IMG/VR virus record: IMGVR_UViG_3300042935_001483
Coordinates: 1-64,000 of that record
DNA: 64,000 nt
Origin: a virus
Reading direction: 5' to 3' (one strand)
How positions within the stretch are numbered: position 1 is the stretch's first letter; each line of letters starts with the position of its first letter. Positions 12,395-45,300 of this stretch are shown here, piece after piece. Both the position numbers and the translations under genes were made by a program. The notes below the pieces were generated by a model. It saw nothing but the letters and a program-made list of their open reading frames with translations. It searched no databases and was not told the DNA's origin.

Positions 12395-14008
12395 TTAAAC
12401 TTCGTTGAGGTTGCCGATGATGATTTTGCCGTAAAACTCAGGTCTTATCATCTTCTTGGCATAACGTGTCATTACGCCACGACGTGGTGTAAAGTTCACT
12501 GGGTCATACACCAACGGTGTTTGAATCAGTGGGATGTATGGAGCGTACACAGCGCCGGTTTCTAGGAAGTTTGTTCCACGGAAACCTACCAACATAACAT
12601 TGTCTGTCATGTATGGGTTCTTGTATACTGTCCAACGGTTGCTCAGAGCGCCAACTTTGGCCACACCCATTGCGAACTTGGCTTGGTCGCCGTCCGTGTT
12701 GGTGCTGAAGCCTGGAATGGATTCAATGATTGTAGCAACGTCTGGGGAGCAAACTAGGAAGTTTGCACCACCGCGCAGTGTCAATTGGTGAATCTTGTTC
12801 GAGACCTTTTGGATCTTGTTGCCCAAGGTTTGGAACCATGTGCTCTTGACATATGCAGTGCGGTTGGCAGCTGTGTCCTTGAACAGACGGGTTGTCACGT
12901 CATATTCAGATCCAATGCGTGCAGACCAGAAGTCGGTTGTGGTCGCCGGAGCATTGGTGATCAACATGTCAAGGATTTCTAGGTCGATTTCCATTGAAAC
13001 ATATTCCGATAGAAGAGCCGTCAATTCGGCTTCAGCATCGATGCTGTGGTATGCATTCAAGTCTTGGGCCAATTCTGGTGTCCAGACGGCTTTCAGCTTG
13101 CGGGTCTTAGCTACAATAGCTTCGCTCTTCAGTTCCAAGTTAACTTCTGGAATTCCGATGTCGTCTGCAACACCTGTGGTGTTTGGCAATCCGTCACCTT
13201 TATCTTCGAAGTCGCCACGACTTGCGTCGCCCGGTTGTTTGTGATATCCAACTAGAGAGTTTCCACTGATGGCTGATCCAGAAACGTAAAAGATTACGCT
13301 TGTACCAGAAACTCGTGTAAACGCAGGATAGAAATCGACGATGCCCGAACCAGAAACGGTAAACGCACGAGCGCCATTGGCGTCGAAATTTGTTCCACTC
13401 AACGATACAGTAACGGATTGGATTCCGCCGTTTGACAATGAAGCACTCAGTTCTTCAGTGAAGTTGATGTTTTCCCAAGTTGGAGCATTTGCTGTGCTAA
13501 GAGAACCTGTGACCATAGCTGGTGTTGCGAGAACATCATTGATGGTGTAACCGAAACGACCTTGGCCATATAGACCGTTGGTTGCGCTGTCGGTAGAACC
13601 CAATTTAGTACCTGTTCCACCGAACAAAGAATTGTCCTTGAAACTTGGCTTGCCAGATTGGCCAGAACCATACTTGAAGTCCAGATAGAACACCAGACCA
13701 GAAGGAAGATTCATTGGTTGAACCGACACGAATTCCTTCGCGGCGATTTCTGCGAAAACACGACGAACTAGTGGGAGAGCAACGCCAGCCCATTGTTCGG
13801 AGTTCGATGAAGTACCCGTGCGGGTTGCTTCGTCGATCAGTTGTTTTGCTTGATTTTCCAGAAGGATGGACATGTGTGACTTTTCCATGTCGCTCTTGAT
13901 GCCTTCTAGAAGTCCGGTCTTTTCCCACTTGGAGACAAGACCGCGAGTTTCGGTCATGAGCTTAACCATTGGATTGGTTGTCTCAGTTAGTAATGATTTA
14001 ATTGACAT
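12395..14008 (-). CDS. 23: Major capsid protein gp23
   Basis: 537 residues, close to T4 gp23 (521). The N-terminal 60 residues are helical and charged (SIKSLLTETTNPMVKLMTETRG...), and the best prohead-protease site is QLIDE|ATRTG after Glu60, at nearly the same place as the T4 cut after residue 65. Then follow conserved capsid segments (EQWAGVALPLVRRVFAEIAAKEFVSVQPM, about 71-99) and, near the end, PRRGVMTRYAKKMIRPEFYG. It forms the hexamers of the head shell with an HK97-like fold. A good AGGA lies before the ATG. Codons are noticeably GC-richer than in the flanking genes, as expected of the most highly expressed gene. It is the last gene before a strong terminator. Confidence 0.95.
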   Translation of the reverse strand: MSIKSLLTETTNPMVKLMTETRGLVSKWEKTGLLEGIKSDMEKSHMSILLENQAKQLIDEATRTGTSSNSEQWAGVALPLVRRVFAEIAAKEFVSVQPMNLPSGLVFYLDFKYGSGQSGKPSFKDNSLFGGTGTKLGSTDSATNGLYGQGRFGYTINDVLATPAMVTGSLSTANAPTWENINFTEELSASLSNGGIQSVTVSLSGTNFDANGARAFTVSGSGIVDFYPAFTRVSGTSVIFYVSGSAISGNSLVGYHKQPGDASRGDFEDKGDGLPNTTGVADDIGIPEVNLELKSEAIVAKTRKLKAVWTPELAQDLNAYHSIDAEAELTALLSEYVSMEIDLEILDMLITNAPATTTDFWSARIGSEYDVTTRLFKDTAANRTAYVKSTWFQTLGNKIQKVSNKIHQLTLRGGANFLVCSPDVATIIESIPGFSTNTDGDQAKFAMGVAKVGALSNRWTVYKNPYMTDNVMLVGFRGTNFLETGAVYAPYIPLIQTPLVYDPVNFTPRRGVMTRYAKKMIRPEFYGKIIIGNLNEV

Positions 14009-14040: not shown

Positions 14041-15426
14041 TTAACTGCGAATACCCGCCAACTTCTTAAAGCGGTTGGCCATTTCGGCACCTTCTGTAAG
14101 AACTATTGGTTTTGTAGGCTTTGTTGATGCAATTGGTTTGCTGGCAAGTCCTTCGGTGATGGTTTTGACTGTACCAGACATTTGCTTCTTTACAGGAGCA
14201 GCTTGTACGGTCTTTTTTCCACCGAAATTAAATGATTCGGCCAGTGTAGCATAAACAAGCTTTGCTTCACGAATTGATTTCGTGAGATCAAAGCTTTCGA
14301 TTACTTTCATTTTTTGCTCATTGTTTAGGCTGGTCTGTTTGAACAATTTGTTCGTGTAGAGAAGCTTTGCATTGAGCAGGTTCACTTCATTGATCTGGGT
14401 CCGTAGATATTCGACTGCGCTACGGTATTCTGCTAGTTCCTTTTTCAACGAAATATTTTCTTTGACGGTTTCTTTTTCTTCATCGTCGTCTTTTGATTTA
14501 CCAGCTTTCTTAGCTTGGTAATCGGCCAGACCTTTTGGAAGTTTGCCTTCTTCGATTTCCTCGTCATCGGCATCTTCGTCCGTTTCGGATAGAAGTTCGT
14601 TCAGGTCAATTTCTTCTTCGGCTCCTGTTTCGTGGGCTTCTGGGGTTTCTGCACCGTGCATTTCTTGCATGCCATTATCGTTATTTAAGCCGTCTTCCAA
14701 TTCCTTTAGGATTTCATCCAAAGAAGCTTCATCAACTTCTTCGTTTTCCTTCAAGGCTGCTGTGTCATTGTCATATCCACCGTTGGATACTTCATTTCCT
14801 TGACCTTGTGGATCATCAGTCTTGTGACCAGTTGTGGTCTTGGTGTAGTCTGAAGACGCTTTTGCGTTTTTCTTGGTAGCTGATAAAGAACCCTTGGTTC
14901 CGCCGATTGCGGTTCCAACTGACTTTACCATATTTTTACCCGGATCTTCGGTATTGTGACCCTTGGTGGTCTTCTTGTAATCACCAGAAGCCTTTTCGCC
15001 TTCAGCCATATATCCAGCGTCTTCGCCAATTTCGCCTTCAAGTTCGGACAATTCAGCTTCGTCACCAACAGGTGTGGACGACATCTCAGCCGATGGTTCT
15101 TCAACTGGAGCACCCATAGCTGCGTCTTGAGCAGCATCGGCGTGACCTTCTGGTGCGCCGCCCGCTGCCATAGCCATATCTTGCGCGGCATCGGCGTGAA
15201 CTTCACCACCACCCATATCGTCGGTTGGCAATGGAGCTTCCGGTGCTGGGGCTTGTGTGGTTTCGGGAGCTTCTTCGTCCCCTTCAATTTCTTGCTTTAG
15301 CTTTTCAGCTAGCATGCTTTGTATTTTTGGTGTGAATGCTTCTTCCAATGCAGCTTTGGCATTGGCTAGGGCAGTAGCACGCACCGCTTTTGCGTCTGCG
15401 ATAGCTTGTTTTAATAGATCTGACAT
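14041..15426 (-). CDS. 22: Prohead scaffold (core) protein, gp22-like
   Basis: 461 residues, very acidic and low in complexity in the middle (Ala/Glu/Asp/Pro/Gly), helical at both ends, placed directly upstream of gp23 as gp22 is in T4 (269 residues). It contains internal duplications: HADAAQD occurs twice, and the block ASGDYKKTTKGHNTEDP is repeated as ASSDYTKTTTGHKTDDP. Several likely gp21-type cut sites are present (ALEE|AF near 30, and VLTE|GAEMANRFKKLAGI at the C-terminus). The core protein fills the prohead and is cut into peptides during maturation. It shares higher GC content with gp23 and lies 32 bases upstream of it. Confidence 0.75.
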   Translation of the reverse strand: MSDLLKQAIADAKAVRATALANAKAALEEAFTPKIQSMLAEKLKQEIEGDEEAPETTQAPAPEAPLPTDDMGGGEVHADAAQDMAMAAGGAPEGHADAAQDAAMGAPVEEPSAEMSSTPVGDEAELSELEGEIGEDAGYMAEGEKASGDYKKTTKGHNTEDPGKNMVKSVGTAIGGTKGSLSATKKNAKASSDYTKTTTGHKTDDPQGQGNEVSNGGYDNDTAALKENEEVDEASLDEILKELEDGLNNDNGMQEMHGAETPEAHETGAEEEIDLNELLSETDEDADDEEIEEGKLPKGLADYQAKKAGKSKDDDEEKETVKENISLKKELAEYRSAVEYLRTQINEVNLLNAKLLYTNKLFKQTSLNNEQKMKVIESFDLTKSIREAKLVYATLAESFNFGGKKTVQAAPVKKQMSGTVKTITEGLASKPIASTKPTKPIVLTEGAEMANRFKKLAGIRS

Positions 15427-17951: not shown

Positions 17952-18578
17952 TTAACGGGTTTCTGATAATATATCACGAATGATATTTTCAATTTTTAGA
18001 TATTTGTTGATGTCTTTGCGATCTTGATTGCCGCCAATCAATTGTTTTTCACGATTGATGCCTTCGGCAAGATTCATATAAGCACCGCGTGTGCTTGGTG
18101 AAGATACAAGGTCAAAGCACAATAGTTCAAAGTCGTCTTGTACTTCAACAGTGTTTTCATTCACATTGCGAACACTTCCCAAACCGCGACTGCTAATACC
18201 AATGCGAATATTGTTTCTAATCAAATCTCTTGCAATATTACCACTTGGTGTAGTTAGAATTTCAATTGTACCAACCACAGTATCACCTTCCCAGTGACAT
18301 TCTGTGACATTGTGGCATACATTCTTTAGATTGATGATACTGGATTCTGGATGATCAAGTTCACCCAGAGCACGACGTTCTTTGATGATTTGTTGATATT
18401 TTTCAACTTCACGCTCTAATACTTCGCGTGGATATACACGACCATTATGATTCTTTTCACCGGCTTTTTGTAATGGACCTTTGAGAACCAATGGACCACC
18501 AGTATTTGCTTTTGCTTCTGTAAGCATCTGCGGAGTAATATCAAATGGTATAAAATCTACTAATAGTTGTTTGCTCAT
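17952..18578 (-). CDS. 21: Prohead core protease gp21
   Basis: 208 residues from the ATG at 18578 (MSKQLLVDFIPF), close to T4 gp21 (212); a longer frame would overlap the preceding gene. Serine-protease motifs are clear: NGRVYPREVLEREV, LGELDHPESS (His76) and IGISSRGLGSV (Ser129/130), with an Asp region FDLVSSPS near 156. This is the herpesvirus-assemblin-like fold of prohead proteases that cut scaffold and targeting peptides at (L/I)-x-E sites. Its own C-terminus (IIRDILSE|TR) has such a site, as expected for self-cleavage. It lies within the head module between small possible substrates. Confidence 0.95.
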   Translation of the reverse strand: MSKQLLVDFIPFDITPQMLTEAKANTGGPLVLKGPLQKAGEKNHNGRVYPREVLEREVEKYQQIIKERRALGELDHPESSIINLKNVCHNVTECHWEGDTVVGTIEILTTPSGNIARDLIRNNIRIGISSRGLGSVRNVNENTVEVQDDFELLCFDLVSSPSTRGAYMNLAEGINREKQLIGGNQDRKDINKYLKIENIIRDILSETR

Positions 18579-18579
18579 A

Positions 18580-19122
18580 TTATTTACTTTGTATAATGTT
18601 TCGTTTAGAAGCAATACCCATGGTTTGTGGATATTGAATACCACCAACTTGACCACGAGTCAAACTTGCTGGAGCTTGTGATTTTGCTTGAGGAGCATCA
18701 TTTACTTGTATTTGTGAATCATCCAAATAATATTCATTTTCTGATTCATTGCCTTCTTTTCCGATGAATACAATATAATATTTGTCTTTCATATAACGAA
18801 CCTCAATGTTATTGACATAAACGTTATATTCTTTTTCAATTTGACCAACACTGCCTTTGGATGCTTTTACAACTGCATTCTTTTTTAGAAATGATTTCTT
18901 TAGTTCATCGGCCAGTTTTTTTACAGCAGCATCTTCTTGCTTTTCCAATTCCGTCTTGAAGTTCTTGAACTGATTTGAAATGTCAATCATTTTGGCATTT
19001 GGTGTAGCAGGAGGCGTGACCGCAGTTGGCGCACGGCCAGTTGACATAGCACCAGCAGCAGATGGATTGTTGCCCCATGTGTCTTCTTTGATAATCTTTT
19101 TAGCAATGTCTGTTAGATTCAT
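18580..19122 (-). CDS. Small head-module protein with targeting-like N-terminus
   Basis: 180 residues from the ATG at 19122 (MNLTDIAKKIIKE|DTWGN), chosen because it begins just after the stop of the upstream gene (19128) and because the N-terminal helix matches a segment inside the product of 16794-17945. Residues 15-45 are an Ala/Thr/Pro linker, 50-90 a Lys-rich helix, 90-140 a beta region (YNVYVNNIEVRYMKDKYYIVFIG), and the end is Gln/Ala-rich. No catalytic motif is visible. It is probably a core or cargo protein cut after IKE. Confidence 0.6.
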   Translation of the reverse strand: MNLTDIAKKIIKEDTWGNNPSAAGAMSTGRAPTAVTPPATPNAKMIDISNQFKNFKTELEKQEDAAVKKLADELKKSFLKKNAVVKASKGSVGQIEKEYNVYVNNIEVRYMKDKYYIVFIGKEGNESENEYYLDDSQIQVNDAPQAKSQAPASLTRGQVGGIQYPQTMGIASKRNIIQSK

Positions 19123-20860: not shown

Positions 20861-22807
20861 TTAGAGTGGTTTATCATCATCAATTATATTAGACTCATCC
20901 ATAATAGATTTTTTTTCGGTTATTATTTTCTTGTTTTTATTATTATACTTGTCCATCAATGACTTTTTTATACGTTTCAAATCTTCGTCCATGCTCAACG
21001 CACCGCCTCTGTATATATGAGTCGTTCTGCGGTCTGACTTGGACTTTTCTTTGTTTTGTCCGTTGCCAAGAATATCTTCGCCGCGTGTTTTTGTGAATGT
21101 GTCACTATATTCTTCTTTTTTTCCTTCTTGACTTGGGCGAATTCCTAGTTCGCGCTCTTTGCGAGTTTCTTCATCCAGAATTGGTTCATCTGCGTTCTTT
21201 TCTTCTTCCAGTGGAGGCAAGCCACCAGCGTTTTCGCCGCCAGAGTCTCCACCTCCACCACCAGAGTCTTCACCGCCGCCGAGGTCTGGAAGTTCACCAC
21301 CTCCACCGCCCATATCTCCACCGCCACCCCCGCCACCTTCTTCACTTGAGGCAAATGCTGGATCACTTCCTTCTTCCTCAATTTGTTTAAATCTCCAAAC
21401 ATCTTTTTTATCCTGCACAACATCTTTTTTGATATATTCAATCTCATCCTCAGACAGTTTGAATACATTTTCATATATCCAATTTCTACTAAACATGGTA
21501 CTTTCCATCATGTCCGTGGACAGATTAATTTTATTTTTCCAAATTTCCAACTTTTCTTGTTCAAAAATTGTGGATGGATTACTTAGTTCCAGTTCAAAAT
21601 CAACAAGCGATGAATCTTGATATCCTTGTACATACAAATGTACAATGGCAATTTTAGTAAGTTCTGAAACTAAAATGCGCTGTATACGACCAATGGTGCG
21701 TGAGAATCGAACATCTTCAGCAGCCAACGTGGCTTTGCCAGATAATCCTTCTTCATATCCCAGAAACGCCTTTGGAATCTTTAGCGCCGCCATCATTTTA
21801 TTACGAACATATTCCAAGTCATCTATACCAGTAAATTCCATACCTGGCAATGTATCGATTTTCGTTCCACTGTCGCTGCCACGAACCGGTAGATAAAAAT
21901 CTTCAACCATGTTGTTTAAATTGAAACGAAGATTATAATCTCCAGTTCTCTCGTCAATATACGGCATCTTTTTTACCTGTCCCATTATTTTTTGCATCGT
22001 GGCATCAATATCCGCCGGTGGAATATTACCCACGTCTATGGAAAAAATACGCTTTTCTGGCGCACGCATGATACGATGAATCAACATGGCATCTTCCATG
22101 AGACTCAATTGCTTCCACACACGACGTGCTGGCTCAATCATGCTCTTGCCATATGGTAAGAAATTACTATCGCTCAACAATCTAAAATGAGCAATTTCAA
22201 AGTTTTCATATTCCATACCACCACCCATGCCATCATGTTGATATTTGACATAGTTTAGATTTTTTGGATCGCTACCTTCAATGCGAGTCAATTCATATGG
22301 ACTGATTGGATGTACAAGAAATACACCATATTCTGGTGATATTTCCAACCTCAAGAAAAAATCTCCATACTTACACATGTTTCTTGTCCAACTCCACATG
22401 TTGAATTCAACATTCAAAATATCATAAAACAAATTTTCTAAAATCTTTTTAATATTTTCATTATTAGATTTAATGGTGAGAACTTTGCCATATTCTGACG
22501 GGACGAGGCACTCATCTGAGTAAATGTCCAATGCAGATGCAATGATTGGGTCCATGTCCATAACATCATAATCTCTGAACAGTTCCAAACGACTTGCTTG
22601 ATATGCCATAGACATATCGCGATTATGCAAATTGTATGTACTGCTTCTTAATCTATTAAAACGATCACGCAAACTATTCCTATCCGTTGCATACTGAATT
22701 TCATCGGTATCTATTATCTTAAGCTTCTTGCCACCCACATTACGAACAATAACGTCCGTGCTGAACATTTTCTTCAGTCTACCAAATAAATCTTTTGTGT
22801 TTGCCAT
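20861..22807 (-). CDS. 20: Portal vertex protein gp20
   Basis: 648 residues; T4 gp20 has 524. The core matches gp20-type portals: YQASRLELFRDYDVMDMDPIIASALDIYSDEC, HPISPYELTRIEGSD, YGKSMIEPARRVWKQLSLMEDAMLIHRI with RAPEKRIF, and MAALKIPKAFLGYEEGLSGKATLA. It forms the dodecameric ring through which DNA is packaged. From about residue 485 there is an extra tail of about 160 residues, with Gly-rich acidic tracts (GGGGGGGD) and AGGLPPLEEE, not found in T4. The same AGGLPPL occurs in the core-type protein 16030-16752, suggesting contact. An ATATTTATA motif is 25 bases before the ATG. Confidence 0.95.
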   Translation of the reverse strand: MANTKDLFGRLKKMFSTDVIVRNVGGKKLKIIDTDEIQYATDRNSLRDRFNRLRSSTYNLHNRDMSMAYQASRLELFRDYDVMDMDPIIASALDIYSDECLVPSEYGKVLTIKSNNENIKKILENLFYDILNVEFNMWSWTRNMCKYGDFFLRLEISPEYGVFLVHPISPYELTRIEGSDPKNLNYVKYQHDGMGGGMEYENFEIAHFRLLSDSNFLPYGKSMIEPARRVWKQLSLMEDAMLIHRIMRAPEKRIFSIDVGNIPPADIDATMQKIMGQVKKMPYIDERTGDYNLRFNLNNMVEDFYLPVRGSDSGTKIDTLPGMEFTGIDDLEYVRNKMMAALKIPKAFLGYEEGLSGKATLAAEDVRFSRTIGRIQRILVSELTKIAIVHLYVQGYQDSSLVDFELELSNPSTIFEQEKLEIWKNKINLSTDMMESTMFSRNWIYENVFKLSEDEIEYIKKDVVQDKKDVWRFKQIEEEGSDPAFASSEEGGGGGGGDMGGGGGELPDLGGGEDSGGGGGDSGGENAGGLPPLEEEKNADEPILDEETRKERELGIRPSQEGKKEEYSDTFTKTRGEDILGNGQNKEKSKSDRRTTHIYRGGALSMDEDLKRIKKSLMDKYNNKNKKIITEKKSIMDESNIIDDDKPL

Positions 22808-22869: not shown

Positions 22870-24525
22870 TTAATGCAATAACCATGTGAGATCTTCTGCC
22901 TTTGAACCATGAATACTGGGTCCGCCAATATGCATTTGCCACGGATTGTTGTATACTCCAAATGGATTGACACTTTTTCCTGCATTTATAAGCTTTATGT
23001 TATTGTATGCCTGTTGCGATTGGCTGGTGCCTATTCGATCAACAATTGCCATGGTTGCGGCATTTGATTCTTTTCTAAGACGCAATGCAACATCTCTGAT
23101 CCACAATCCAATTCCAATTGCCATTACAAGATCGTCATTATATCCGTCCATTGCTTCGGCTTTTGCGGAAACAGCACCAGACTTCCATATAAAGACTTGA
23201 AGTTCCTCAATAAGACGCTTGCTGTGTACGATAACTTCTTTATTTCTAAAATAACTTTCCAACTTTGATATAACAAGCGGTCTGGTTTTATTTGATGTCG
23301 TAAATCCGGGAGTCATTTTTTTCTCCAACGCGTTTATTTTGTTGGTCATTTGCGTTTCTACATCGACATATTGCAAATCTGAAGAACTGTAAAATAAGTT
23401 TGGATAATTATTATCTAACACTTCTTGTATCACAGCCCATCCAACATTGGCATTTTCTATAACAAGTAGCGCGTTGTTGTACTCGGTTGCCATCGTCATC
23501 AATGCTCTGGCATATTCCTTTGTTGGAATTTTTCCTTTATATTCTGCAACTTGTTCCATTGTTTCTATATCAAATATCTGGGCGGCACTAAAGTCCGACG
23601 CATCTCCACGAGCAACGTCCGCACTAACCATATATGATTTACCGGCAACTGGATACTTGAATATCCAATAACCTTTGTCGATTCCACGCTTTTCTATTGG
23701 ATCAATTGCGTGATTTTTTTCATACCATTGAAGTAGTGAAATATCAATAACGGTATTACCTGATGTGCTAAATTCACAATCGCATTCTTGTGCTGCACCT
23801 TTTTCTCCAGACAACTTTGTTTGATCGTCACGCCATTTTTGGTTGCGTTCTGGATGATGATGCCAAGGCAAACTGATACGATTCATGTTGTTTAGTCCAG
23901 ATTCGCTTTCTGTCCACATTTTGTGAAACCAATTACCTACGCCATTTGGTGTAGATAGCACAACCGCTTTACCACCAGTAGCCAAAGTGTATTGAGAAGA
24001 CAACCATATTTCGTCAATATTGTCGATGAACGCGGCTTCGTCGATTATCAACAAAGATGCGGCACCTGAACGACCGGCTGTACCTGCCGATGAAATAGCA
24101 ACAATCTTTGAACCGTTGGATAGTTTCAATGACAGTCGATTGTCTTCTGATTCTTTCAGTTTCAACCAACTTGGTAGATTGTCATTGGCAAAACGAACCT
24201 TGGTTACAATTGCTTTGGATGTTTCTTGCGTGATACTTAAACAAATGATTTCTTTGTTTTCATGAAACGTCATGAGCCACAATGAATACGCAGCAACCAG
24301 TGTAGTAATACCCATCTGACGACTTTTGAGAATAATGTTTTGGTCATACTTGATCAAGTCGGCCAAAGTTTTGTCTTGAAATGGATAAGTAAGAAATGGC
24401 AGTGTGCCGCGAATAGGATGTTGAATTTTCACATACTTCTTCATGAAGTATATCGGATCTTTCAAGCACTTGACATATTCTATCTTGATTATGTCCTTTA
24501 AATTTTGAGTGCTAGACTCAGACAT
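22870..24525 (-). CDS. 17: Terminase large subunit gp17
   Basis: 551 residues; T4 gp17 has 610. ATPase motifs: Walker A-like LKSRQMGITT (66-75), Walker B LLIIDEAAF (158-166, with Asp162-Glu163) and coupling motif VLSTPNG (189-194). Nuclease motifs of the RNase-H-like domain follow: MVSADVARGD (Asp303) and, later, VIENANVGWAV and GYNDDLVMAIGIG. The motor cuts concatemers and pumps DNA through the portal. The gene overlaps the small gene 24518-24904 by 8 bases and precedes the portal gene directly; the T4 genes 18 and 19 that would lie between are absent here. Confidence 0.95.
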   Translation of the reverse strand: MSESSTQNLKDIIKIEYVKCLKDPIYFMKKYVKIQHPIRGTLPFLTYPFQDKTLADLIKYDQNIILKSRQMGITTLVAAYSLWLMTFHENKEIICLSITQETSKAIVTKVRFANDNLPSWLKLKESEDNRLSLKLSNGSKIVAISSAGTAGRSGAASLLIIDEAAFIDNIDEIWLSSQYTLATGGKAVVLSTPNGVGNWFHKMWTESESGLNNMNRISLPWHHHPERNQKWRDDQTKLSGEKGAAQECDCEFSTSGNTVIDISLLQWYEKNHAIDPIEKRGIDKGYWIFKYPVAGKSYMVSADVARGDASDFSAAQIFDIETMEQVAEYKGKIPTKEYARALMTMATEYNNALLVIENANVGWAVIQEVLDNNYPNLFYSSSDLQYVDVETQMTNKINALEKKMTPGFTTSNKTRPLVISKLESYFRNKEVIVHSKRLIEELQVFIWKSGAVSAKAEAMDGYNDDLVMAIGIGLWIRDVALRLRKESNAATMAIVDRIGTSQSQQAYNNIKLINAGKSVNPFGVYNNPWQMHIGGPSIHGSKAEDLTWLLH

Positions 24526-27044: not shown

Positions 27045-27139
27045 ATTATTTTAATTTTATAAAACTTTTATTTGAATCTGCAAATATTTCTAATTTATCA
27101 TGATGAAACTTATTTGACCCAATTTCAATCAAAAACTTA

Positions 27140-32438: not shown

Positions 32439-33064
32439 TGCTTATATACATCAAATTTGGATAAGTCTGGATATGGTAGCTCCAAATCTTCATTATGCTT
32501 TGGTGTACCATCCATGTTATAAAATTGATTCATAAGAAGAACTCCACGCGCCGCCAATTCTGGCATCATATAAAAATTCCAACCTAGCATATCCAGATTA
32601 TCATCATGATATGAACACTCACGTCTGCCACTGTATCTGGCACGCTTAAACCAATGATATGCATGAAGATCGTCTGTGAGAATAGCACCACCCTTGCTTA
32701 ATTTGAAGTGCTTATATGGGCCAGTAAAAGATATGCACATGAACGAATTTGGAATATACATGTTGGCAGTAAAGCGCAATGCGCTGTCCCATGTGCGCGT
32801 GGGCTTGAGCTGATATGCACCCTTGATGGTCTTGCCTTCTACCGGTTCAAAGTTTACCTTTCCACCAGCATGTATGATCTCACATGGTACACTTGGGTAC
32901 GTGCGGGAAGGAATGCCAATAGACTGGCCTTTTATATTTTGATAATATAATGACAAAAACAAAGCATTGCTTTGATTATCCACGGTGACTGCATATGGAG
33001 CACCAGTATATTTTGCTAATTTTTCCTCAAACTCTTCTGTTATTCTGTATACTCCGTTTGCCAT
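32435..33064 (-). CDS. Short DegT/DnrJ/EryC1-type sugar aminotransferase
   Basis: 209 residues; family members have about 370. Visible motifs: FEEKLAKYTGAPYAVTVDNQSNAL (PLP phosphate-binding region), SIGIPSRTYPSVPCEIIHAGG, then SFTGPYKHFKLSKGGAILTDD, where Lys118 aligns with the PLP-binding Lys, and LGWNFYMMPELAARGVLLM, matching the GYN-x-R-M-x-E-x-Q-A-A segment. Almost the whole C-terminal small domain is missing. The protein may be a miniature enzyme making a 4-amino-sugar (substrate for the acetyltransferase at 30997-31554), or a degenerate remnant, but the frame is intact and coupled to its neighbours. Confidence 0.75.
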   Translation of the reverse strand: MANGVYRITEEFEEKLAKYTGAPYAVTVDNQSNALFLSLYYQNIKGQSIGIPSRTYPSVPCEIIHAGGKVNFEPVEGKTIKGAYQLKPTRTWDSALRFTANMYIPNSFMCISFTGPYKHFKLSKGGAILTDDLHAYHWFKRARYSGRRECSYHDDNLDMLGWNFYMMPELAARGVLLMNQFYNMDGTPKHNEDLELPYPDLSKFDVYKQ

Positions 33065-33070
33065 AATATT

Positions 33071-35005
33071 TTATTTGGTTGCGACTATAAATCCCCCACC
33101 GGCGTGCAGATGCTTTATGGTATATTTGAATCCAGACCCGCGCAACAATGCCAATAATATTGCAACTTCTTTGTCTATGGTTTGACCACCCTGCAAGTGA
33201 TATTCAACCAATATTGTTCCAATTTTATCCAGATCTTCTTTCTGCATGCTATCAAAAAATGGATATTCGCCACCTTCTATGTCCATTTTCATCAAATCTA
33301 TATGATCAATATTATTTTCCTTGATAAAAGTGCGAAATGAAATTCCTTGTATTTTGTGAGAAACAACCAAACTATTTTGATGATTTTTCTTGATTGATCC
33401 TATGGTAGAATTGCTAGGATCTATGAAAAACTCCAATTCACCATCTTTATCACACAATGCTTTGTCTATTATAATCAATTCATCCGATGTATATGTATCT
33501 CTCAATGTTTTCAATGCTTGTGTGTTTGGTTCTATTGCATATATCTTTTTGCATTTGGCTACATACTTGATATATTCAACCCAAATACCAGCGTTGGCAC
33601 CAACATCAACAACGGTATTAAACTCTTTTCCTTTCAAATATTCATTGTATTCACCGTCTACAAAAAACTCCATATAGTTATTATATGTTGGGGTGATATT
33701 ATTCTTTGTTTTCAGTACTGGCTTTTCTACATTGACAGTTCGTATTCTGAAATCTTTGGAGTGTAATAAATTTTCTCCACTATATACCTCAACAGTCATT
33801 CCACCAAAACGGATATCTGTTTCAAAATCTCTATAACTCTTGTGTACAGGAATAATCCAATAAGTTAGATTGGCGTTCAAAATTTCATGTTGTGCTGCAT
33901 ACAACACCGTTTTTGAGTCTATGTCCTTTACAGACACAATTGCATTTTTAATATCGTGTTTGGATACATATTCAATCTTGTTTTCCGAACGGTCGTATCC
34001 TATCTTGATATCTTCTTGTTTTTCTATAAATTCTGGCATAATATTGTTTGGTTTAATTTTTAAAGAGTTTAGTATTTTTGAGCAGTTGTCTTGCATACTT
34101 TCAAAATTGAGATAGTTTATATTTTCGTATTTGTCATACATTCCAAGATACACTGGTAGATTATATATCAACGACGCAACATTGAACGATATAGCTTCTC
34201 TAATCACAAGAGGACTTGTTTCTTTATCATGTATGGTTCCTCGCGAAGTGAATAGAAAAAGATCCGCAATTTGATAAAAATTTTCAACATCTTTACGTTC
34301 GTTCCACCACACACAATTGCTCGGAAAATCTTTCATCAATGGTTCCCAATAAAACTTAAAATTATCCGCCTGATTGCCGATGAAATGAAACTGGACTGGA
34401 TAGTCCTTCAACATCTTAGCATACTTAATTATCTCAGCTTGATTTTTTCTTGGAGTAAATAATCCAACATTTATAATATGTTTCTTATTTGGGTCAAGTC
34501 CAAGTACCTTCAACGCTTCCGCTCGAGGCTTTCTTGGCTTAATTACTATTGGATATTCACACACATCCATTGCTACATCCAATGATTTCAAAGATTCAAG
34601 TTGATACTTGCTTACGAACAGTATCTTATCAGGGAAAAATGTTTTATTTCTTGCGTCGAAACTGCTGTCGTGGGATGTTTCAATTATTTTGTATTTTCTG
34701 TTTTTGTCATACAATTTTACTGCCAAATTGCCATCCATGAAATATTCTGGCATTTCTTCCAAATGAACAATTTCCGGATTTATTCGGTCTATGATATTCG
34801 GAAGATTCATTTTATCTTCACCAAGTTCTATGAATCTGTTTCCAAGAATCTCCTTTATTTGGTTTCTTTGAACAGTAAAGCCGCCATGATTTGAGTATTC
34901 AACACAATAAATTTCATGATCTTTGTGTAAAACTTGTATTTTCTTAAGCAAGAACTGGGGACATCCACCGGTTGAAAGGTGAGGTGCTATATAAAGAATC
35001 TTCAT
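33071..35005 (-). CDS. GT4 glycosyltransferase fused to FkbM-type methyltransferase
   Basis: 644 residues. Residues 1-310: GT-B glycosyltransferase (KILYIAPHLSTGGCPQFLL; HIINVGLFTPRKNQAEIIKYAKML; LFLFTSRG and ETSPLVIREAISFNV near 255-285). Residues about 330-430: a beta-rich linker similar in style to the mid-domain of the gene at 24924-27044. Residues about 450-644: FkbM methyltransferase (NTVVDVGANAGIWVEYI, YAIEPNTQALKTL, LMKMDIEGGEYPFF). FkbM enzymes O-methylate sugars. It is the first gene of the cassette in transcription order and so is the likely beginning of its message, but no motif of the common type is found before its ATG. Confidence 0.85.
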   Translation of the reverse strand: MKILYIAPHLSTGGCPQFLLKKIQVLHKDHEIYCVEYSNHGGFTVQRNQIKEILGNRFIELGEDKMNLPNIIDRINPEIVHLEEMPEYFMDGNLAVKLYDKNRKYKIIETSHDSSFDARNKTFFPDKILFVSKYQLESLKSLDVAMDVCEYPIVIKPRKPRAEALKVLGLDPNKKHIINVGLFTPRKNQAEIIKYAKMLKDYPVQFHFIGNQADNFKFYWEPLMKDFPSNCVWWNERKDVENFYQIADLFLFTSRGTIHDKETSPLVIREAISFNVASLIYNLPVYLGMYDKYENINYLNFESMQDNCSKILNSLKIKPNNIMPEFIEKQEDIKIGYDRSENKIEYVSKHDIKNAIVSVKDIDSKTVLYAAQHEILNANLTYWIIPVHKSYRDFETDIRFGGMTVEVYSGENLLHSKDFRIRTVNVEKPVLKTKNNITPTYNNYMEFFVDGEYNEYLKGKEFNTVVDVGANAGIWVEYIKYVAKCKKIYAIEPNTQALKTLRDTYTSDELIIIDKALCDKDGELEFFIDPSNSTIGSIKKNHQNSLVVSHKIQGISFRTFIKENNIDHIDLMKMDIEGGEYPFFDSMQKEDLDKIGTILVEYHLQGGQTIDKEVAILLALLRGSGFKYTIKHLHAGGGFIVATK

Positions 35006-35035: not shown

Positions 35036-35677
35036 TCAATTTTTTTCTTTTAAAATTTCATTTATTTTTTCGTTCACTTTTTTCAATTCTTTTTCGGCGG
35101 TTTTTATTTTTTTAAGGCAAGTGGACCAATCTTTTTGAATACGTTCTTTCAATTCTCCTCTCGCTTCATTGCTCCATTCCTCCACCATGCCGGTTTGGTT
35201 TGCCCACGTGAGAATTTTTGAATCATCACTTTCAAGATAATCCTTACTTTCTCGTAGTTTTTGTTTAATGTCGGCTAAATATGAAATTTCGTTCTCAATC
35301 ATTTTTTTAGTTTCATACAATTTGAATTGTCCTTTTATTCTAAGAGATGTTTCTTCTTCGGAAACACAATCAAGACATTTTTTGGTTTTATGAAACATCT
35401 TTCTGTCTTGCTTCGTACCCCATCGTATTTCTCTTCCACAGCAAGAGCATTTATCATCAACCTCGTCTCGTATTATATCCATCACTCGCGTAACAGAGCG
35501 TGGGCCGGTCGCAGTTTGTATCCACTGCTTGCCGCTCGAATCGGACCATTTTTCTCCCTCTTTACGGATTATATATTTGTCATGATCTCCGGTATATCCG
35601 ACTTGTAAAAATGGTCGCTCATTATTCAAATATGAGCGAACTATATCTATGTTTGATGTATTTTTTGCGTGTTTCAT
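35036..35677 (-). CDS. Conserved phage protein with treble-clef-like cysteines, unknown function
   Basis: 213 residues from the ATG at 35677 (MKHAKNTSNIDIVRSYL), supported by AAAGG eight bases upstream. Sequence order: N-terminal GEKWSDSSGKQWIQ segment, then RVMDIIRDEVDDKCSCCGREIRWGTKQD with a second pair KKCLDC, a probable zinc-binding site, then a long charged helix. I associate this arrangement with a conserved T4-like phage family of unknown function. No nuclease motif is obvious. It lies between the sugar cassette and the multi-enzyme protein. Confidence 0.6.
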   Translation of the reverse strand: MKHAKNTSNIDIVRSYLNNERPFLQVGYTGDHDKYIIRKEGEKWSDSSGKQWIQTATGPRSVTRVMDIIRDEVDDKCSCCGREIRWGTKQDRKMFHKTKKCLDCVSEEETSLRIKGQFKLYETKKMIENEISYLADIKQKLRESKDYLESDDSKILTWANQTGMVEEWSNEARGELKERIQKDWSTCLKKIKTAEKELKKVNEKINEILKEKN

Positions 35678-35734
35678 ATATAACCTTTTACATATATATG
35701 CGTAAACTCGCACAATAATTGGACAAGAATATTA

Positions 35735-38700
35735 TTATATGGATATTCCCAATATAGTTTTAGCCGCTTTTTGAATTGGAGCATATTCTTCTGGTTCCAA
35801 CCCCGCTTGAGCAAGACCTTCCTTGGCTCTTTCCAGTGCTTTTACTTGAACATCTTTTGGTAGAGTCTTCATGAGTGTCAGCAATCCAACATAACTTCTA
35901 AAGTTTTCAATATCTTGACCACTTGGCTTGCGTTTAAAAATAAGCTCAAATACTTTATTTACGCTGTTGATACGATCTTCCGGTTTGCTTTCGCTGGCAG
36001 CAATGTCGGTATAAACATCTACTTTTTTACCTTGATAGTCCATGTTCTTGGCTACAAGACGATATGCCTTGCGCACACCGGCATGACCAGAACCGCTTGT
36101 ATTGAGTGTATATTCTGCCGGTAGAGCGTGTGTAACATTGACTGATACAACACTCTTGCCTTTGGCATCAACCAAACTCTTCAACTGACCAGATTGTATC
36201 TTGAGTGCAGTTGAGTTGGTGACATATACTGCATTTGGTAGTGCGGTTGCTGCTCGTGTCAGACCACGCAACAAAATGGCTCCTGCCAATCCTTTGATTC
36301 CGGTGGTCAAATCTTGCCATGGAGAATCTTTGATAAACTTGTTCCATTCAGATGGTTTTTCAAATCCCTGTGGATCAAGTGTCATTTCATCTCCTTCAAA
36401 GTCAATTTGTACTACTTGTTTTACTGGAGCATAATACCACAATGTGACTGTTTGACCGGCCAAAGCACGTTGATTTTTTGTACGACCAACATAATAAAAA
36501 TTCTTACTTACTTTATTTTTTGATGTTGCATTCCATTCAACTTTCTTGTCATCAATGCTATCTAAGTATGCTTCCATTGTGTCCAACTTTTCTTTTGGCA
36601 CAATCACATCAATATCTCCAAAAGCGGACTTGTATTTAGCCAAATCTTTATATTTTTCATCGCCGCTCATTAGATACTGAGAACTTCCATTGAAAACAAA
36701 TCCGTTTTCAATATATGGATTATTTTTCTTCCAAAAACCCACCTTACTATTTAGTGCATAAACAAGTTCTTTCACATCACCAGATACAGCGGAACGAATG
36801 TCTTTACCGTGTGGATCAACAATCTTGAGTTTGGTGGTGGCTTGGGCTGGTTGACCATTTACGGTCTTTGACGTTTTGTCATCTACAGCAGCAACAGATT
36901 GACCAGATTCATTCAATAATGCAATTTCTTCTCTGATCAGTTGCATTGCCAATTCCATGCCAAGATTAGCATCATGTTTTATCTTTTCAATATTTTTCAT
37001 AGCTTCTGGTGTTGCTGCTTTTTCTAATTTTTTTGCAGTGCTTGCTGATTTCATATTTTTTATGAATGTATCTAGCACATATTTTACAAATTCTTCTCTG
37101 GATTTAAATGTTGTTCCATTCTTTGATACAACAACTCCTTTATCAAATGCTCTATTATTATCAAGTGCTTTACTCAAAGCAACCACGGTTTCGCATTTTT
37201 TCTTTAATGATGGATCATTTGCATCCAATCCATAATAGCCTTGTAATGCTGATGAATTTATTTTTGAAACACCAGCAAGGTTGCCATAGAACTTCAATAT
37301 ATCCAAAAATACTTGATTTGGATTAAAGAACACATGCTTTGAGTTTGTTTTGATCAGAGATGACGCAACCTTATTATCTATCGTATTTACATACGGATTG
37401 GTATTTGATCCCAACACAACATTAAGAGCATCGGATAATGCACTCAATAGATTTCCAGTAACAAATCCTTTTAGTCCTTTTTCTGGAGTTGTTCTAATTT
37501 TTGTCCAGTCCGATGATACTTTATACGACAAAACCAAATCAACTTGAATTTTTTCACCACCAACGTTGAATATTAAATATCCTGTACCAAAGTCTTTATC
37601 TTGAAAGTTTGGATATATATAACTTGGTTTTTTTTCTTGAATAAATTGAATAATCTTTTCCGAATATTTTTTATTAGATGCTAGTTGTGATGTTCTATCA
37701 TTGGTTTCTTCTGGTAATATAATTTGAATATCTATATCACCATATTCTACATCATCTTTTTCCAAATCTTGTTTATAATACATTGCTGAACCTACTGGTC
37801 CATTGGATTCTATTGGAGGAAGATTTGAATATGCATTAAATTCTGATACAAATTTATCCATTGCACTCAAAATATTTGATACTTTCTTTGGAGTTATAAT
37901 AGTTGATTGTGTAGCAGTGGATCTCCAACCACCTTCACCAAACATTTCTTTTTCCATTTCATTTATAACTTCCTCAGCAAAGTTTATATATGGATTAACT
38001 TCTGATACCGGCGCTGGCTTGTTTGCTATGAGAGTATTCCAAATTTCTTCTTTATCTTTGTTGCCGACCGGTGGAAGATTTTTCAAGAATGATTCTTTAT
38101 CATTGTTCATCAAAAATTCACGCATTTTTGTGCCACTTACATTCACTGTGGTAGTTCTTTCAACACCAATTTTTTTAATTTTATTAGCAGCCAACAACTC
38201 TGGGTATTTTTTTAAATCTTCGTCTTTAAAATTTATTTCAACATCATCTTTGTCAGAATACAAATTTATGGTTGGCATATCTGCGGCGTCTTGAGTCAAT
38301 CTTTGTTCCAACCATCCAAGTTCATGCATAATAGCTCGAACAGGAGAATCAACAAATTTTACTTTTACATTTTTTGGCAAAGATGGAATAAACACATCAC
38401 TCCATAGTTTCACAAAGTCATCTCCCTTTATAGGAAACTCACCCTTCTTTATTCTATCAGAAGATGATGTATAAACAATGACTCGATCATTTTCATTGGC
38501 TGCTTTTTCAATAAGCTTCCAGTGACCAATGTGCAATGGCTTGCCAGCAATTGGAATAAGACCAAGAGTTTTGTTGGTTGATCCCAACAAACCTTGTTTG
38601 GATGTCATCAAACGAATTGTATCATGAATATCATCTTTTATTTGAACAATGTTCTTTTTGTCACCAGCAATTTGTTGTAGAGCATCAAAGAACTTATTTA

Positions 38701-39655
38701 ACTTTGGTTGATTCTTGGCAACATAAAAATTTGAATCTGAAATAACATCTTCTTCGGATTTTCCTTCAGTACCAATTGCAGCAAAAATATTTTGTATCAA
38801 TGCTCTGATTTGTTGAAAGTATGCTGAAGCGGCTTCTGGTTCAAGTTTATATGCGTCCTTCTTTGCACCACGAACTCCAGCATCATATTGATCGGCTTGC
38901 ACCAACTTGAAGAACTCTCCATTATCAAGCTTCATTACCACACCTTCTGTTGTGCCACCCAATGTAGATGGAACAGCAAGAATAGCCTCAGAAAATTTTG
39001 TTACAACATCGGTCGGATTGGTCCAGTCAGTATTTGTTAGTTTTGATCCAAACAAAGGATTTTTTAACAGATTTTCTTTAGTCAATTTTCCTTGAAAGAA
39101 GATGGGAAATGATGATATTTCCAACAAGTCTGCCATCTTTTTCACAGATTCATAATCTGTTATTTCTTGTTTTGGAATGGTGTGCAAATCTCCACCAACC
39201 ACACGATACTGCACTTGACCATAACTTCTCAAAAACAAGCCACCCTTGTTGACATATGTACGAGTTAATGTATCTTTGTTTTGAGCAAACTCAACACTAA
39301 ACTCAGTACTCTTTGGAATGCTGTTAATCTTATTGTTTATCTTGGACAAATGATCAAATATCATGGAATATTGACCAATACCAACAGAAGATTGAGATAT
39401 ATCACCTTTTTCTTTATCATTCAAATGCGCAAACTCTTTGGCATACAATACAGTTCCTTTATATGCCACAACCCAATTCTTGGTATAATCTGCTTTATCA
39501 ACTTGCTGTGTACGTACCAATGTTAGTTTTGTTCCATCTACCTTTTCGGTGATGACCATGTTCTGACTTAGTATTTCATTGGCTCTTTTTAGACGCAGTG
39601 ACTCTGTTTTTGGTTCAAAAATATACTTTTTTAGGTTTTTTATAGAAATGTCCAT
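35735..39655 (-). CDS. Multi-enzyme protein: ligase-like, HIGH-motif nucleotidylyltransferase and two Pol-beta-type nucleotidyltransferases
   Basis: 1306 residues from the ATG at 39655; a GTG 24 bases upstream lies before the TATA-type motif (39669-39677), so the ATG is preferred. Four modules: (1) 1-270, RNA/DNA-ligase-like, with TEKVDG (Lys38), FSVEFAQ, EGVVMK (237-242) and EFFKLVQ (Lys250); (2) 362-545, nucleotidylyltransferase of the NMNAT/cytidylyltransferase class, GKPLHIGH (371-378) and VSGTKMREFL (506-515); (3) 612-870, NTase with GS (622-623), DID (640-642) and Asp706; (4) 985-1200, NTase with GSS (990-992), DID (1014-1016) and Asp1085. Helices ending INE (566) and QLIREEIALLNE (905-916) precede modules 3 and 4, like the head-targeting signals. 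Possible packaged RNA-repair/nucleotide polyprotein. Confidence 0.85.
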   Translation of the reverse strand: MDISIKNLKKYIFEPKTESLRLKRANEILSQNMVITEKVDGTKLTLVRTQQVDKADYTKNWVVAYKGTVLYAKEFAHLNDKEKGDISQSSVGIGQYSMIFDHLSKINNKINSIPKSTEFSVEFAQNKDTLTRTYVNKGGLFLRSYGQVQYRVVGGDLHTIPKQEITDYESVKKMADLLEISSFPIFFQGKLTKENLLKNPLFGSKLTNTDWTNPTDVVTKFSEAILAVPSTLGGTTEGVVMKLDNGEFFKLVQADQYDAGVRGAKKDAYKLEPEAASAYFQQIRALIQNIFAAIGTEGKSEEDVISDSNFYVAKNQPKLNKFFDALQQIAGDKKNIVQIKDDIHDTIRLMTSKQGLLGSTNKTLGLIPIAGKPLHIGHWKLIEKAANENDRVIVYTSSSDRIKKGEFPIKGDDFVKLWSDVFIPSLPKNVKVKFVDSPVRAIMHELGWLEQRLTQDAADMPTINLYSDKDDVEINFKDEDLKKYPELLAANKIKKIGVERTTTVNVSGTKMREFLMNNDKESFLKNLPPVGNKDKEEIWNTLIANKPAPVSEVNPYINFAEEVINEMEKEMFGEGGWRSTATQSTIITPKKVSNILSAMDKFVSEFNAYSNLPPIESNGPVGSAMYYKQDLEKDDVEYGDIDIQIILPEETNDRTSQLASNKKYSEKIIQFIQEKKPSYIYPNFQDKDFGTGYLIFNVGGEKIQVDLVLSYKVSSDWTKIRTTPEKGLKGFVTGNLLSALSDALNVVLGSNTNPYVNTIDNKVASSLIKTNSKHVFFNPNQVFLDILKFYGNLAGVSKINSSALQGYYGLDANDPSLKKKCETVVALSKALDNNRAFDKGVVVSKNGTTFKSREEFVKYVLDTFIKNMKSASTAKKLEKAATPEAMKNIEKIKHDANLGMELAMQLIREEIALLNESGQSVAAVDDKTSKTVNGQPAQATTKLKIVDPHGKDIRSAVSGDVKELVYALNSKVGFWKKNNPYIENGFVFNGSSQYLMSGDEKYKDLAKYKSAFGDIDVIVPKEKLDTMEAYLDSIDDKKVEWNATSKNKVSKNFYYVGRTKNQRALAGQTVTLWYYAPVKQVVQIDFEGDEMTLDPQGFEKPSEWNKFIKDSPWQDLTTGIKGLAGAILLRGLTRAATALPNAVYVTNSTALKIQSGQLKSLVDAKGKSVVSVNVTHALPAEYTLNTSGSGHAGVRKAYRLVAKNMDYQGKKVDVYTDIAASESKPEDRINSVNKVFELIFKRKPSGQDIENFRSYVGLLTLMKTLPKDVQVKALERAKEGLAQAGLEPEEYAPIQKAAKTILGISI

Positions 39656-42321: not shown

Positions 42322-45300
42322 TTAGATGCTATTATCAATCTTGCTAAAACCGTTTTCCTTCTTGATTTCCAGTTGTTTGTCTACCATGTCTCTCATGGCA
42401 TCAAGATGGCTTATTATAATAATGAAATCGAAGCTGCTCTTTAGATAGTCAAACAATGTATGTAGCATAGGAAGATTTGACGCATCCAAAGCCGACATTC
42501 CTTCATCAACTACCAAAAAGTTGGAACGCGGTAGATTGCTAATGTTGATCAAAGATACTCGCAAAGCCAAAGCACTAACAAACTTTTCCATACCAGAACA
42601 TAGTTCCAATGGCCATTTTTTGTCATCATATTTGATATATACATTGACATTCTTACCATCTGTTTCAATACCCATACTAAACTCAACCATCTGAGACAAT
42701 ATATTATTCACATCTTGTTCAATTCTTGGAATGGCGTCTGAAATAATTTTATATGGCACGCCATCTTTTCCAATAGAAGTTAAATAATATTGATAAGCAG
42801 CAAGTTCGTTTTCATGCTCTTCTATTTTCTTGATTTGTTCTTCGATATTTTTTATTTGGTCTGTCAATGACACTTTACGACTATACGCATCCACATATTC
42901 TCGTTCAATATTCTTTAGCTTTGACACAATGATAGTATTTTCATCCTTTAGTTTGGATAAAACAACCTCAACAATCTTGTTGCTTTCTACAATTTCTTTG
43001 GATTTTTCATACAACTCAACCAGATTATCAATATCAACTATTCTATTGGAGTTTTTAGAAATTAAATTATTGAGATTAGATTTTTCCAATTCTTTCTTGG
43101 AAATAAATGCTGTGAGTGTATTGATAGTTTCTTTGAGCAGCACACTTTGTTCATATTGAGCCACAAATGGTTCAACTTCTATAATCTGTGTTTTGATGGT
43201 TGATATGGCGTCAAACAATTCTCTTGCATCAGTTTTGTCGGATTCCAAACTATTTTTGGCAGATATAGCATCTTTTACAAACGCATTATCACAGCAATAT
43301 TCACAATTTGGATCATATTTGTGGTTGGATAGATGTTCTATCTTCTTGAGTTTTTCTTTGACCACGACCTTAAATTTTTCCAATTCTTGCTCAAGACGAG
43401 TTTTTTGACGAACAAAACTTGCATGCTTGTCTGATTTTTCTTTTAGATCGTCTGGAAATGCAGATAGTTTATTGGAAGCATCCACATATTCTTTTTTCTT
43501 TGACTCTGTGTTTGTGTCAATAACCGAAATAGCATCAACAGCTTGACTATTTTTTGTTTCTAAAGTTTCGCGCTCTTTTTTTAGAGCAACTACATTTGTT
43601 GGCACATTTTCAAGTTTTATAATCTTGGCTTGTTGTTCAACGATTTTATTATCAAGTTCATTCTTCTTTGATGAATATTGATCGCGCTGACCAGTCAAAT
43701 CAATGAGTTTGGACTCTGCCAATCCCAAATCATTTTTATTGGACTCAATTTTGACTTGATTGTTTTCTTTGTTGAATGACTTGATGGCACCTGTTAGTTC
43801 TTTTAGTTTGTCATTGCCCTTGGCTACAAGTTTATCAAACACATTCAGACCAATGAACTGACACAACAAATCCTTGCGTTCAGTTTGACCCATTTCAACA
43901 AATGACCCTTGATTGCCTTGTAATGCAAGTGAAGTTAGTACAAAGTCATCATAATCACCGATATAATCACGAATGATTTCATTTGTGCTTCTGCGAGCTT
44001 CACTATTGAGGCTAATTTTTTCTTCTTTCTCCATCTTATAGAAGTTTACATCAACTTTTACATTGCCCTTTTTATCTCTGATGCCTTTGCGTTCAATAAC
44101 ATATTGTATGTCATTTATCTCAAATGTAAACTTGCCATGAAAAGACATTTTTTGTGAGTTCATCACATGAGTTGCTTTGAATGCTCTGGCACTTTTATCA
44201 AATGCTGTAAAGCATAATGCATCCATCAATGATGATTTTCCGCTCGCATTGTTTGCAAACAATCCATACACAGATTCTAGTTTGGTAAAGTCAATAACAT
44301 TGTTTTCACCATAACTAAACATATTACTAAACTCAAACTTGATTGGCTTCCAACGAATATTGCGTGAAGTGTCATCTTTGCTCAAATCCGCATTGAGTTC
44401 TTTATTGATTTTATGAACAGATGCAAGTGTGTCATCATCCATAATATCTGGATATTTAGATTTGAGTGCTTCACTAATAAGTTTATTTTGATAATCAACA
44501 TTGCCAATCTGACTCAAGTTGGCAGCAGCTTGAACACTTACAACTTTAGAAGCATCGTCGCCATCAACTCGCATATAAATAATATCGCTGATTTCATGCG
44601 TCTTTTTGATTTCATTTACCACCTTTTTTAGTTCAGTAGCAATGGTTTCTTTGCAACGCACACGAAGTTTTGGCTTCTTGGGCATTGTGCTTATATCAGT
44701 CATCAACTTGCCGTCATCAATATCAATAGTAAAATAACCATAATCATTTGGTATTTCTACATGCTTGTATGCTTTGTTCTTTACGTCCCACAAAGAAAAT
44801 CCATGACCAAGCAATGCTTCACCGTGATTTTGTTGTATGCACGAACCAGCATAACGAATGATTGGCTTTTCCGCTGCCGGATCATACATTTGCAGATTTT
44901 GTGCCATGTGTATATCTCCAAGCAGTGCCATGTCATGACCATCAAACATATCGTTCGTGATACTCTTGTTGGTTACTGTATAACCCACATCAGTTTTGGC
45001 GTCAAATACACCACCATGATACAGAGCAATCTTTGTATCAAACTCGGTCTTGATTTTCTTGGTCACATCTTTCATTTTTATAAATGAAGTATGGTCGGTG
45101 AAAATAGACATGTTATTTATAAGAATATTAGCAAATGAATACAACTTGCTTTCTTTTAGATAATAAAGATTGTCGTGCGCCAAATTTTCTACAATAGGAG
45201 TCAAACTATCTAATCTCGTTGTGTTTGTGAGCAAACAATCATGATTACCAGCAATAACAATCGTAGGACGCAAATCAGATAAACTCTTTAGAAGGTCGCT

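Follow-up and report, generated by a model that had tools for sequence, protein, structure and literature searches.

The gp21 protease of bacteriophage T4 cuts after the sequence L/I-X-E, and the T4 internal proteins carry targeting propeptides of 10–19 residues, as described in passages of PMC9026906. Passages of PMC5512222 (Iyer et al. 2017) describe polyvalent phage proteins, injected polypeptides that each carry several enzymatic domains, are likened to polyproteins and are released by embedded peptidases. Phage RNA repair by an Rnl1 or Rnl2 ligase together with the Pol-beta nucleotidyltransferase RlaP is treated in section 3.4.9 of PMC7824862. Here we analyse a 1306-residue polyprotein that can be compared with each of these systems. 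It is encoded in a 64,000-nucleotide stretch of viral DNA (the window; positions 1 to 64,000 of the 70,439-base IMG/VR record IMGVR_UViG_3300042935_001483), where a single open reading frame (ORF) joins an RNA-ligase-like module (A), a HIGH-type nucleotidylyltransferase (B) and two Pol-beta-type nucleotidyltransferases (C and D). The polyprotein brings together what is known from T4 internal proteins and from phage RNA ligases paired with a Pol-beta nucleotidyltransferase, in families without annotated function. We give an even chance to the reading that it is a head-packaged RNA-repair kit, processed by a gp21-type protease and injected to reverse host RNA cleavage. Its features, with ↓ marking a candidate cut, are the following:

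35735..39655, minus strand: polyprotein ORF, 1306 aa, ATG at 39655 and stop at 35735–35737, with 97% identical full-length copies in other viral contigs
38600..39655, minus strand: module A, residues 1–352, predicted RNA-ligase-type nucleotidyltransferase (PF09414 below cut-off, Foldseek match to T4 RNA ligase 2, invariant columns)
37934..38599, minus strand: module B and linker, residues 353–574, HIGH-superfamily nucleotidylyltransferase (NMNAT/PPAT profile, VIA Z score)
37931..37936, minus strand: candidate prohead-protease site E574↓G575 (MFGE↓GGWR), pattern in 14/14 aligned rows
36908..37933, minus strand: module C, residues 575–916, Pol-beta-type nucleotidyltransferase (Foldseek DNA Pol beta, VIA Z 10.7)
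36905..36910, minus strand: candidate prohead-protease site E916↓S917 (LLNE↓SGQS), pattern in 16/16 aligned rows
35738..36907, minus strand: module D, residues 917–1306, Pol-beta-type nucleotidyltransferase (phrog_19290 E=1e-23, motifs)

The polyprotein ORF has no internal stop over its 1306 codons. An earlier note, made from the letters of this DNA, had read four nucleotidyl-transfer modules with intact motifs in one ORF and had advised a search for the same domain order in other phages. Both points are borne out: the motifs were located (TEKVDG 36–41, EGVVMK 237–242, HIGH 375–378, SGTKMR 507–512), the catalytic residues are invariant or nearly so in distant relatives, and full-length relatives (64–97% identity; fragments 59–98%) carry the same four modules in a single frame. 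The dN/dS ratio between the window and five relatives is 0.05–0.27 for every module where it could be computed, which is the signature of purifying selection. The AlphaFold model of residues 1–566 has a mean predicted local distance difference test score (pLDDT) of 91.8 and a predicted template modelling score (pTM) of 0.87; for residues 564–1306 the values are 80.9 and 0.51. The presence of the same modules in relatives, their invariant or nearly invariant catalytic residues, the low dN/dS and the models together show that the four-module ORF is not a product of chance. Structure prediction, also advised by the note, gave the expected RNA-ligase, HIGH-superfamily and Pol-beta folds for modules A, B and C, while the assignment of module D relies on invariant motifs. 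No paper describing the polyprotein or its domain architecture was recognised among the matches listed by a search of open-licence literature, which does not show its absence from print. NCBIfam and PADLOC scans returned nothing decisive.

RNA-ligase nucleotidyltransferases are characterized by a covalent lysine in motif I (KxDG), an acidic motif III, motif IV (EG) and a lysine in motif V, whose sequence is KxK. Across the alignment of A+B sequences (A5; 32 rows, identity down to about 25%) the residues K38 (the nucleophile), D40, G41, E122, E237, G238 and K250 of module A are invariant, and PF09414 (RNA_ligase) is matched at E<=0.01 by 15 of the 32 members. The best Foldseek match of module A is T4 RNA ligase 2 (2hvr, E=6e-8), with a root-mean-square deviation (rmsd) of 23.7 over 376 columns, so that domain placement differs between the two proteins; 1s68 (E=1e-5, TMt 0.45), a fungal tRNA ligase (E=3e-6) and a Naegleria RNA ligase (2e-4) were also found. 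The first four ligase matches are RNA or tRNA ligases and the sole entry with a DNA ligase title ranks 27 among the 50 listed. These data support the modelled Rnl2-like RNA-ligase fold with its expected motifs, and RNA joining is the predicted activity.

Module B has its fold at residues 361–549 and carries the HxGH and SxTxxR motifs as HIGH and SGTKMR, with H378 and S507 invariant in A5. Its profile matches solved NMNAT and PPAT structures (best E=7e-8), and structure comparison (VIA) gives a tie among families with Z up to 12.7 for NadD, 12.6 for PPAT and 12.0 for NadM. It shares the HIGH fold and both motifs with the NadM/NadR-type NMN adenylyltransferases and differs from them in being fused to a ligase and equally close to NadD and PPAT. 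Note that it scores 18.3 bits with the nadR model against a cut-off of 341, and that PF16581 (HIGH_NTase1_ass) is matched by one of the 32 A5 members.

The catalytic motif of module C comprises G622/S623, D640/D642 and the third aspartate D706, all three aspartates being invariant in the module C alignment (A3). Foldseek identified DNA Pol beta (E=9e-4), and the structural matches by VIA are DNA polymerases beta, lambda and mu (best Z 10.7, 185 aligned residues, rmsd 4.3, residues 574–822). The modelled palm fold and the motifs place module C in the Pol-beta superfamily. It yielded no match by tblastn in 50,697 phage records at an E limit of 0.1. Module D matches phrog_19290 (E=1e-23), a family of unknown function, and carries GS (990–991), GDID (1013–1016; D1014/D1016) and QIDFE (1083–1087), which includes the third aspartate D1085. 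In its alignment (A6; 34 rows, some partial) GDxD and QxDxE are invariant and GS nearly so, a GS...DxD plus third Asp arrangement that assigns module D to the Pol-beta superfamily on sequence grounds; the PDB matches listed for the joint C+D model mostly cover module C. RlaP (PF10127) gave no module D match in five records at E<=1, a separate ORF of a 297-kb relative (G001) being matched, and PF10127 is absent from the 20 families matched by the 34 A6 members. As hhalign detects no significant similarity between modules C and D (probability 1%, E=0.05), we do not claim that they are duplicates. Foldseek against viral models returned unnamed proteins for the most part, together with a phage protein of 1096 aa titled "ParB/Sulfiredoxin". 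A PDB sequence search with P0001 alone gave no match; the sole PDB sequence match to A3/A6, ribosomal S20 (E>0.1), was judged to be due to chance.

Sites for a gp21-type protease were sought with the pattern [LIVMF]xE↓[GAS] in aligned rows that include the window and omit rows without the region; several rows are close relatives. The whole polyprotein has three such sites and only those at 574 and 916 fall between modules; the third, at 223, lies within module A and is present in 5/12 rows. Both junction sites lie in low-pLDDT stretches of the model of residues 564–1306 (564–577 and 913–921). Comparison of the window with five relatives shows that linker 1 is relaxed (dN/dS 0.15–0.99) and linker 2 less clearly so (0.03–0.38). 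Site 916 conforms to L-x-E. At site 574 the window has Phe as the third residue before the cut, and its relatives have either Phe or Leu there. The earlier note had put the cuts after INE (564–566) and LNE (914–916). The second of these holds. E566 lacks conservation, INE being absent at that place from L005 and L010, and the conserved site of the first junction is E574↓GG. The likely cut sites are thus E574↓G575 and E916↓S917, as candidate gp21-type sites.

In other T4-like phages A+B is one gene (about 480–640 aa) and D another (about 400 aa). Two stand-alone A+B genes tested both match phrog_27149 and stand-alone D corresponds to phrog_19290, both without annotated function in PHROGs. Of the 25 unfused loci examined, some of them near copies, 21 have D upstream of A; two of the other four start where the contig ends, and two belong to Campylobacter phages that have D elsewhere. 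Among 25 stand-alone D ORFs, two lack a start. The 23 readable ones all carry a conserved GGN close to their N-terminus; it follows a leader ending in Glu in 10 of them (about 7 independent), 12 begin ATG-GGN and one has no standard start codon there. A Firehammervirus is among the phages whose D protein bears the leader. The residue two positions before the leader Glu is Ile or Leu in most cases, Met in L071 and Phe in L061. As this Glu directly precedes GGN, cleavage after it would yield the N-terminus of the leaderless D proteins. The motif [LIVMFY]xE[GAS] occurs in the leader of 13/21 stand-alone A ORFs, and the pattern control on the first 25 residues of all called ORFs gave 23/166 in one such phage (G002) and 35/359 in the 297-kb relative (G001). 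Two adjacent module D paralogues are found per locus in L081 and L146, with a third elsewhere in the record of L081.

A tree of the 32 A+B sequences places the 14 fused ones on one side of a branch with support of 100/99. The fused clade has A-B-D and A-B-C-D forms: module C is missing in L027 (nearly linker to linker), L057, L133, L135 and L138, and mostly deleted in L021 (617–860), where remnants of C are left. Deep fused relatives retain an N-terminal leader before the ligase start (ILSE↓SLDVSI in L135, LLE↓DLDVSI in L138). The earlier note had also read the N-terminus of the window polyprotein as a helix in the style of those between the modules; it is not a targeting helix, since the ligase domain begins with its sequence MDISIKN, which aligns with residues located after a leader in relatives.

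The gene neighbourhood was tabulated for 21 fused loci (L027 and L139 are one contig and others are near copies). The ORF directly downstream of the polyprotein is the same in 19 of them and has no family beyond weak phrog_4152 and LmuB matches. In 14/21 loci the terminase gene lies within 2.5 kb after the fused gene, followed by the portal gene where the contig reaches it; in five (L141, L016, L007, L054 and L057) a 33071-type gene comes next, as in the window, L133 has a different order and L052 ends. A block that includes glycosyltransferase-like genes separates polyprotein and terminase in the window. Its genes (24924–35005) are found upstream of the polyprotein in L013, L010, L008 and L005, from which it follows that the block has moved. 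In L059 the unfused pair is located one small ORF behind gp23. The leader-bearing relatives and the position beside terminase and portal support, at the level of sequence, a link to head proteins. The partner ORF and the T4-like head genes of the window are:

35036..35713, minus strand: partner ORF, conserved, 225 aa, immediately following the polyprotein gene in most fused loci
22870..24525, minus strand: terminase large subunit, following the polyprotein closely in many relatives
20861..22807, minus strand: portal protein (phrog_213 E=5e-69)
17952..18656, minus strand: gp21-type prohead protease, the expected cutter (Peptidase_S77 PF03420 E=3e-25)
14041..15426, minus strand: scaffold-like protein, 461 aa, proposed from position and site density only, no family match
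12395..14008, minus strand: major capsid protein (phrog_138 E=7e-74)

The scaffold-like protein has nine [LIVMF]xE↓[GAS] sites in 461 aa (Poisson P about 4e-5 against a background of 3.45 per 1000 residues, taken from ORFs of the 297-kb relative). All five major capsid proteins aligned, one of them identical to that of the window, carry LI(D/K)E↓A around residue 60 and LLE↓G around residue 35, and the pattern also occurs once far downstream in these five. Among phage capsid proteins the best match belongs to a Microcystis phage (58.6%), ahead of those of an uncultured phage (57%) and of Flavobacterium phages (55%).

The proposed course of events begins with uptake of the polyprotein into the prohead core during head assembly. 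The phage gp21-type protease would cut it after E574 and E916 to give three enzymes: a fusion of an Rnl2-like RNA ligase with a HIGH-type adenylyltransferase, and two different Pol-beta-type nucleotidyltransferases. These would be delivered into the cell together with the DNA and would act ahead of phage gene expression, most likely on RNA ends, the Pol-beta enzymes restoring or tailing 3′ ends and the ligase sealing them. In this way cuts made by host defence nucleases in tRNA or other RNA would be mended at once. Packaging, cleavage, injection and RNA as the substrate are what we infer from the features described above. The likeness to T4 internal proteins and Alt resides in a hydrophobic-x-Glu motif that closes a leader or linker just ahead of the mature start, in the gp21-type protease and in the proximity of head genes in many relatives; theirs is an N-terminal leader, whereas the window polyprotein has its sites between fused enzymes. 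Release by embedded peptidases, as in the passages on polyvalent proteins, has no counterpart among the Pfam matches of the polyprotein, for which the prohead protease is the candidate; the same passages of PMC5512222 describe no such domain set. As in phage RNA repair by Rnl1/Rnl2 and RlaP, an RNA-ligase fold stands beside a Pol-beta nucleotidyltransferase, with a phosphoesterase or kinase near some relatives; the differences here are a module D unmatched by PF10127, the fusion of a HIGH adenylyltransferase to the ligase and the linkage to head genes. Near the unfused pair a calcineurin-like phosphoesterase (metallophosphoesterase) is found in 8/25 loci and a P-loop kinase (Zeta_toxin/AAA_33, with a weak polynucleotide-kinase match) in 5/25; these neighbours could prepare RNA ends. 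In line with an RNA theme, the 297-kb relative has 36 tRNA genes and a tmRNA gene (pieces L153, L154, L158).

Several observations weigh against a packaged RNA-repair kit. The window polyprotein starts at MDISIKN with no N-terminal leader, and its targeting signal would therefore need to be internal. Its site 574 (MFGE) falls outside strict L/I-X-E. A profile of the commonest N-terminal tag of this phage group, built from 10 such tags of the 297-kb relative, does not single out the junctions: it scored junction 1 at 4.5 bits, and of 71,207 internal windows elsewhere 107 did as well or better; junction 2 did not rank among the eight best of the protein, and a stretch away from the junctions scored higher. 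Leader or motif are missing in 13/23 stand-alone D and 8/21 stand-alone A proteins, so packaging is not universal, and the leaderless homologues include the A-B proteins encoded by the Vibrio and Campylobacter phages. Judged by number and mass, neither homologue is among the 11 proteins identified in the virion gel of Campylobacter phage CP220; the main text of the CP21 paper does not name the homologues by locus tag. Regarding the enzymes, module A matches PF09414 with E=2e-4, under the curated cut-off, and its motif V has a single Lys, the second Lys of KxK being absent. Many unfused relatives have, in place of the HxGH of module B, a reduced form such as TKEH or TKAH. Finally, the 297-kb relative encodes a separate canonical RNA ligase and a canonical RlaP elsewhere, so that the kit would be partly redundant there. 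The polyprotein would then be a second, distinct set, which can be taken as specialisation (early, injected) or as an argument against RNA repair. The RlaP ORF of this relative lies, by eye, near macro-domain-like and metallophosphoesterase-like ORFs (101835–106638), close to the tRNA cluster.

The absence of an N-terminal leader in the window protein, the negative linker profile and the many leaderless unfused relatives would also be accounted for by a cytoplasmic, uncut four-domain RNA-repair enzyme made late, with linkers serving as flexible joints and LxE↓GG as a relic of the fusion of leader-bearing genes. We find this unlikely, given that both junction motifs are kept while the rest of linker 1 changes and that the gene lies beside terminase and portal in two thirds of the fused loci.

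Slightly lower is the probability we assign to a protein that is packaged and cut as proposed and whose chemistry is protein nucleotidylation for host take-over or, through the HIGH module, of cofactor type (NAD/CoA). The module B profile is nearest NMNAT and PPAT, passages of PMC5512222 count the Pol-beta nucleotidyltransferases of injected polyvalent proteins among the protein modifiers, and T4 heads contain the cleaved ADP-ribosyltransferase Alt according to a table in PMC9026906. On the other side, an RNA-ligase fold is linked to a Pol-beta nucleotidyltransferase in most unfused loci, with phosphoesterase or kinase near some. Moreover, NAPRTase was not found in four of the five relatives searched, the 297-kb one included, and is present in one; NAD salvage in the 297-kb relative would thus be without its usual partner. 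The CCA-enzyme family PF01743 had no match in five relatives. From the earlier proposal of an RNA repair or cofactor kit the RNA-repair theme is retained, while NAD repair is not supported, module B being only generically NMNAT-like.

A packaged DNA-repair kit in which the ligase and a Pol-beta-like polymerase seal gaps and nicks of the incoming genome is improbable, for the DNA polymerases among the best structural matches of module C are offset by the RNA and tRNA ligases that head the module A matches, ahead of a lone DNA ligase, and by the dispensability of module C among relatives.

The usual view of phage RNA repair is that its genes are expressed once infection has begun. A kit carried in the head would act before a translation block; if this is true, the head protease doubles as processing enzyme for the polyprotein. 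Somewhat short of even is the chance we give to the broader proposal of a class of virion-delivered RNA repair, in which an RNA ligase-adenylyltransferase and two nucleotidyltransferases would be packaged as a single polyprotein, set free by the head-maturation protease at internal propeptides, and would reverse the harm done to RNA by host suicide nucleases from the first minute of infection. The analysis provides a functional hypothesis for two phage families of unknown function, phrog_27149 and phrog_19290, whose unfused two-gene form is spread over many T4-like phages. The separate-gene form is found in Vibrio and Campylobacter phages that are in culture, which makes the proposal accessible to mass spectrometry and enzyme assays.

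Other observations concern the phage and its relatives at large. One match in a scan of genome contigs is a 5.8-kb contig of a Cloacimonadota metagenome-assembled genome. Positions 42322–45528 of the window hold a single ORF matching SbcD-like and SbcC-like families, that is, a fused SbcCD. Similar N-terminal helical tags (MKKSELKxLIKEVIEE-like) are found on otherwise unrelated ORFs, both in G001 (L149–L163; ORFs 22974, 23600, 24101, 95738, 139632, 140143, 233029, 248387, 274387 and 278426) and in the window (19623, 47587 and 63034). The same helical tag is also internal to ORFs 24101 and 50931, and it is possibly a targeting tag of this phage group.

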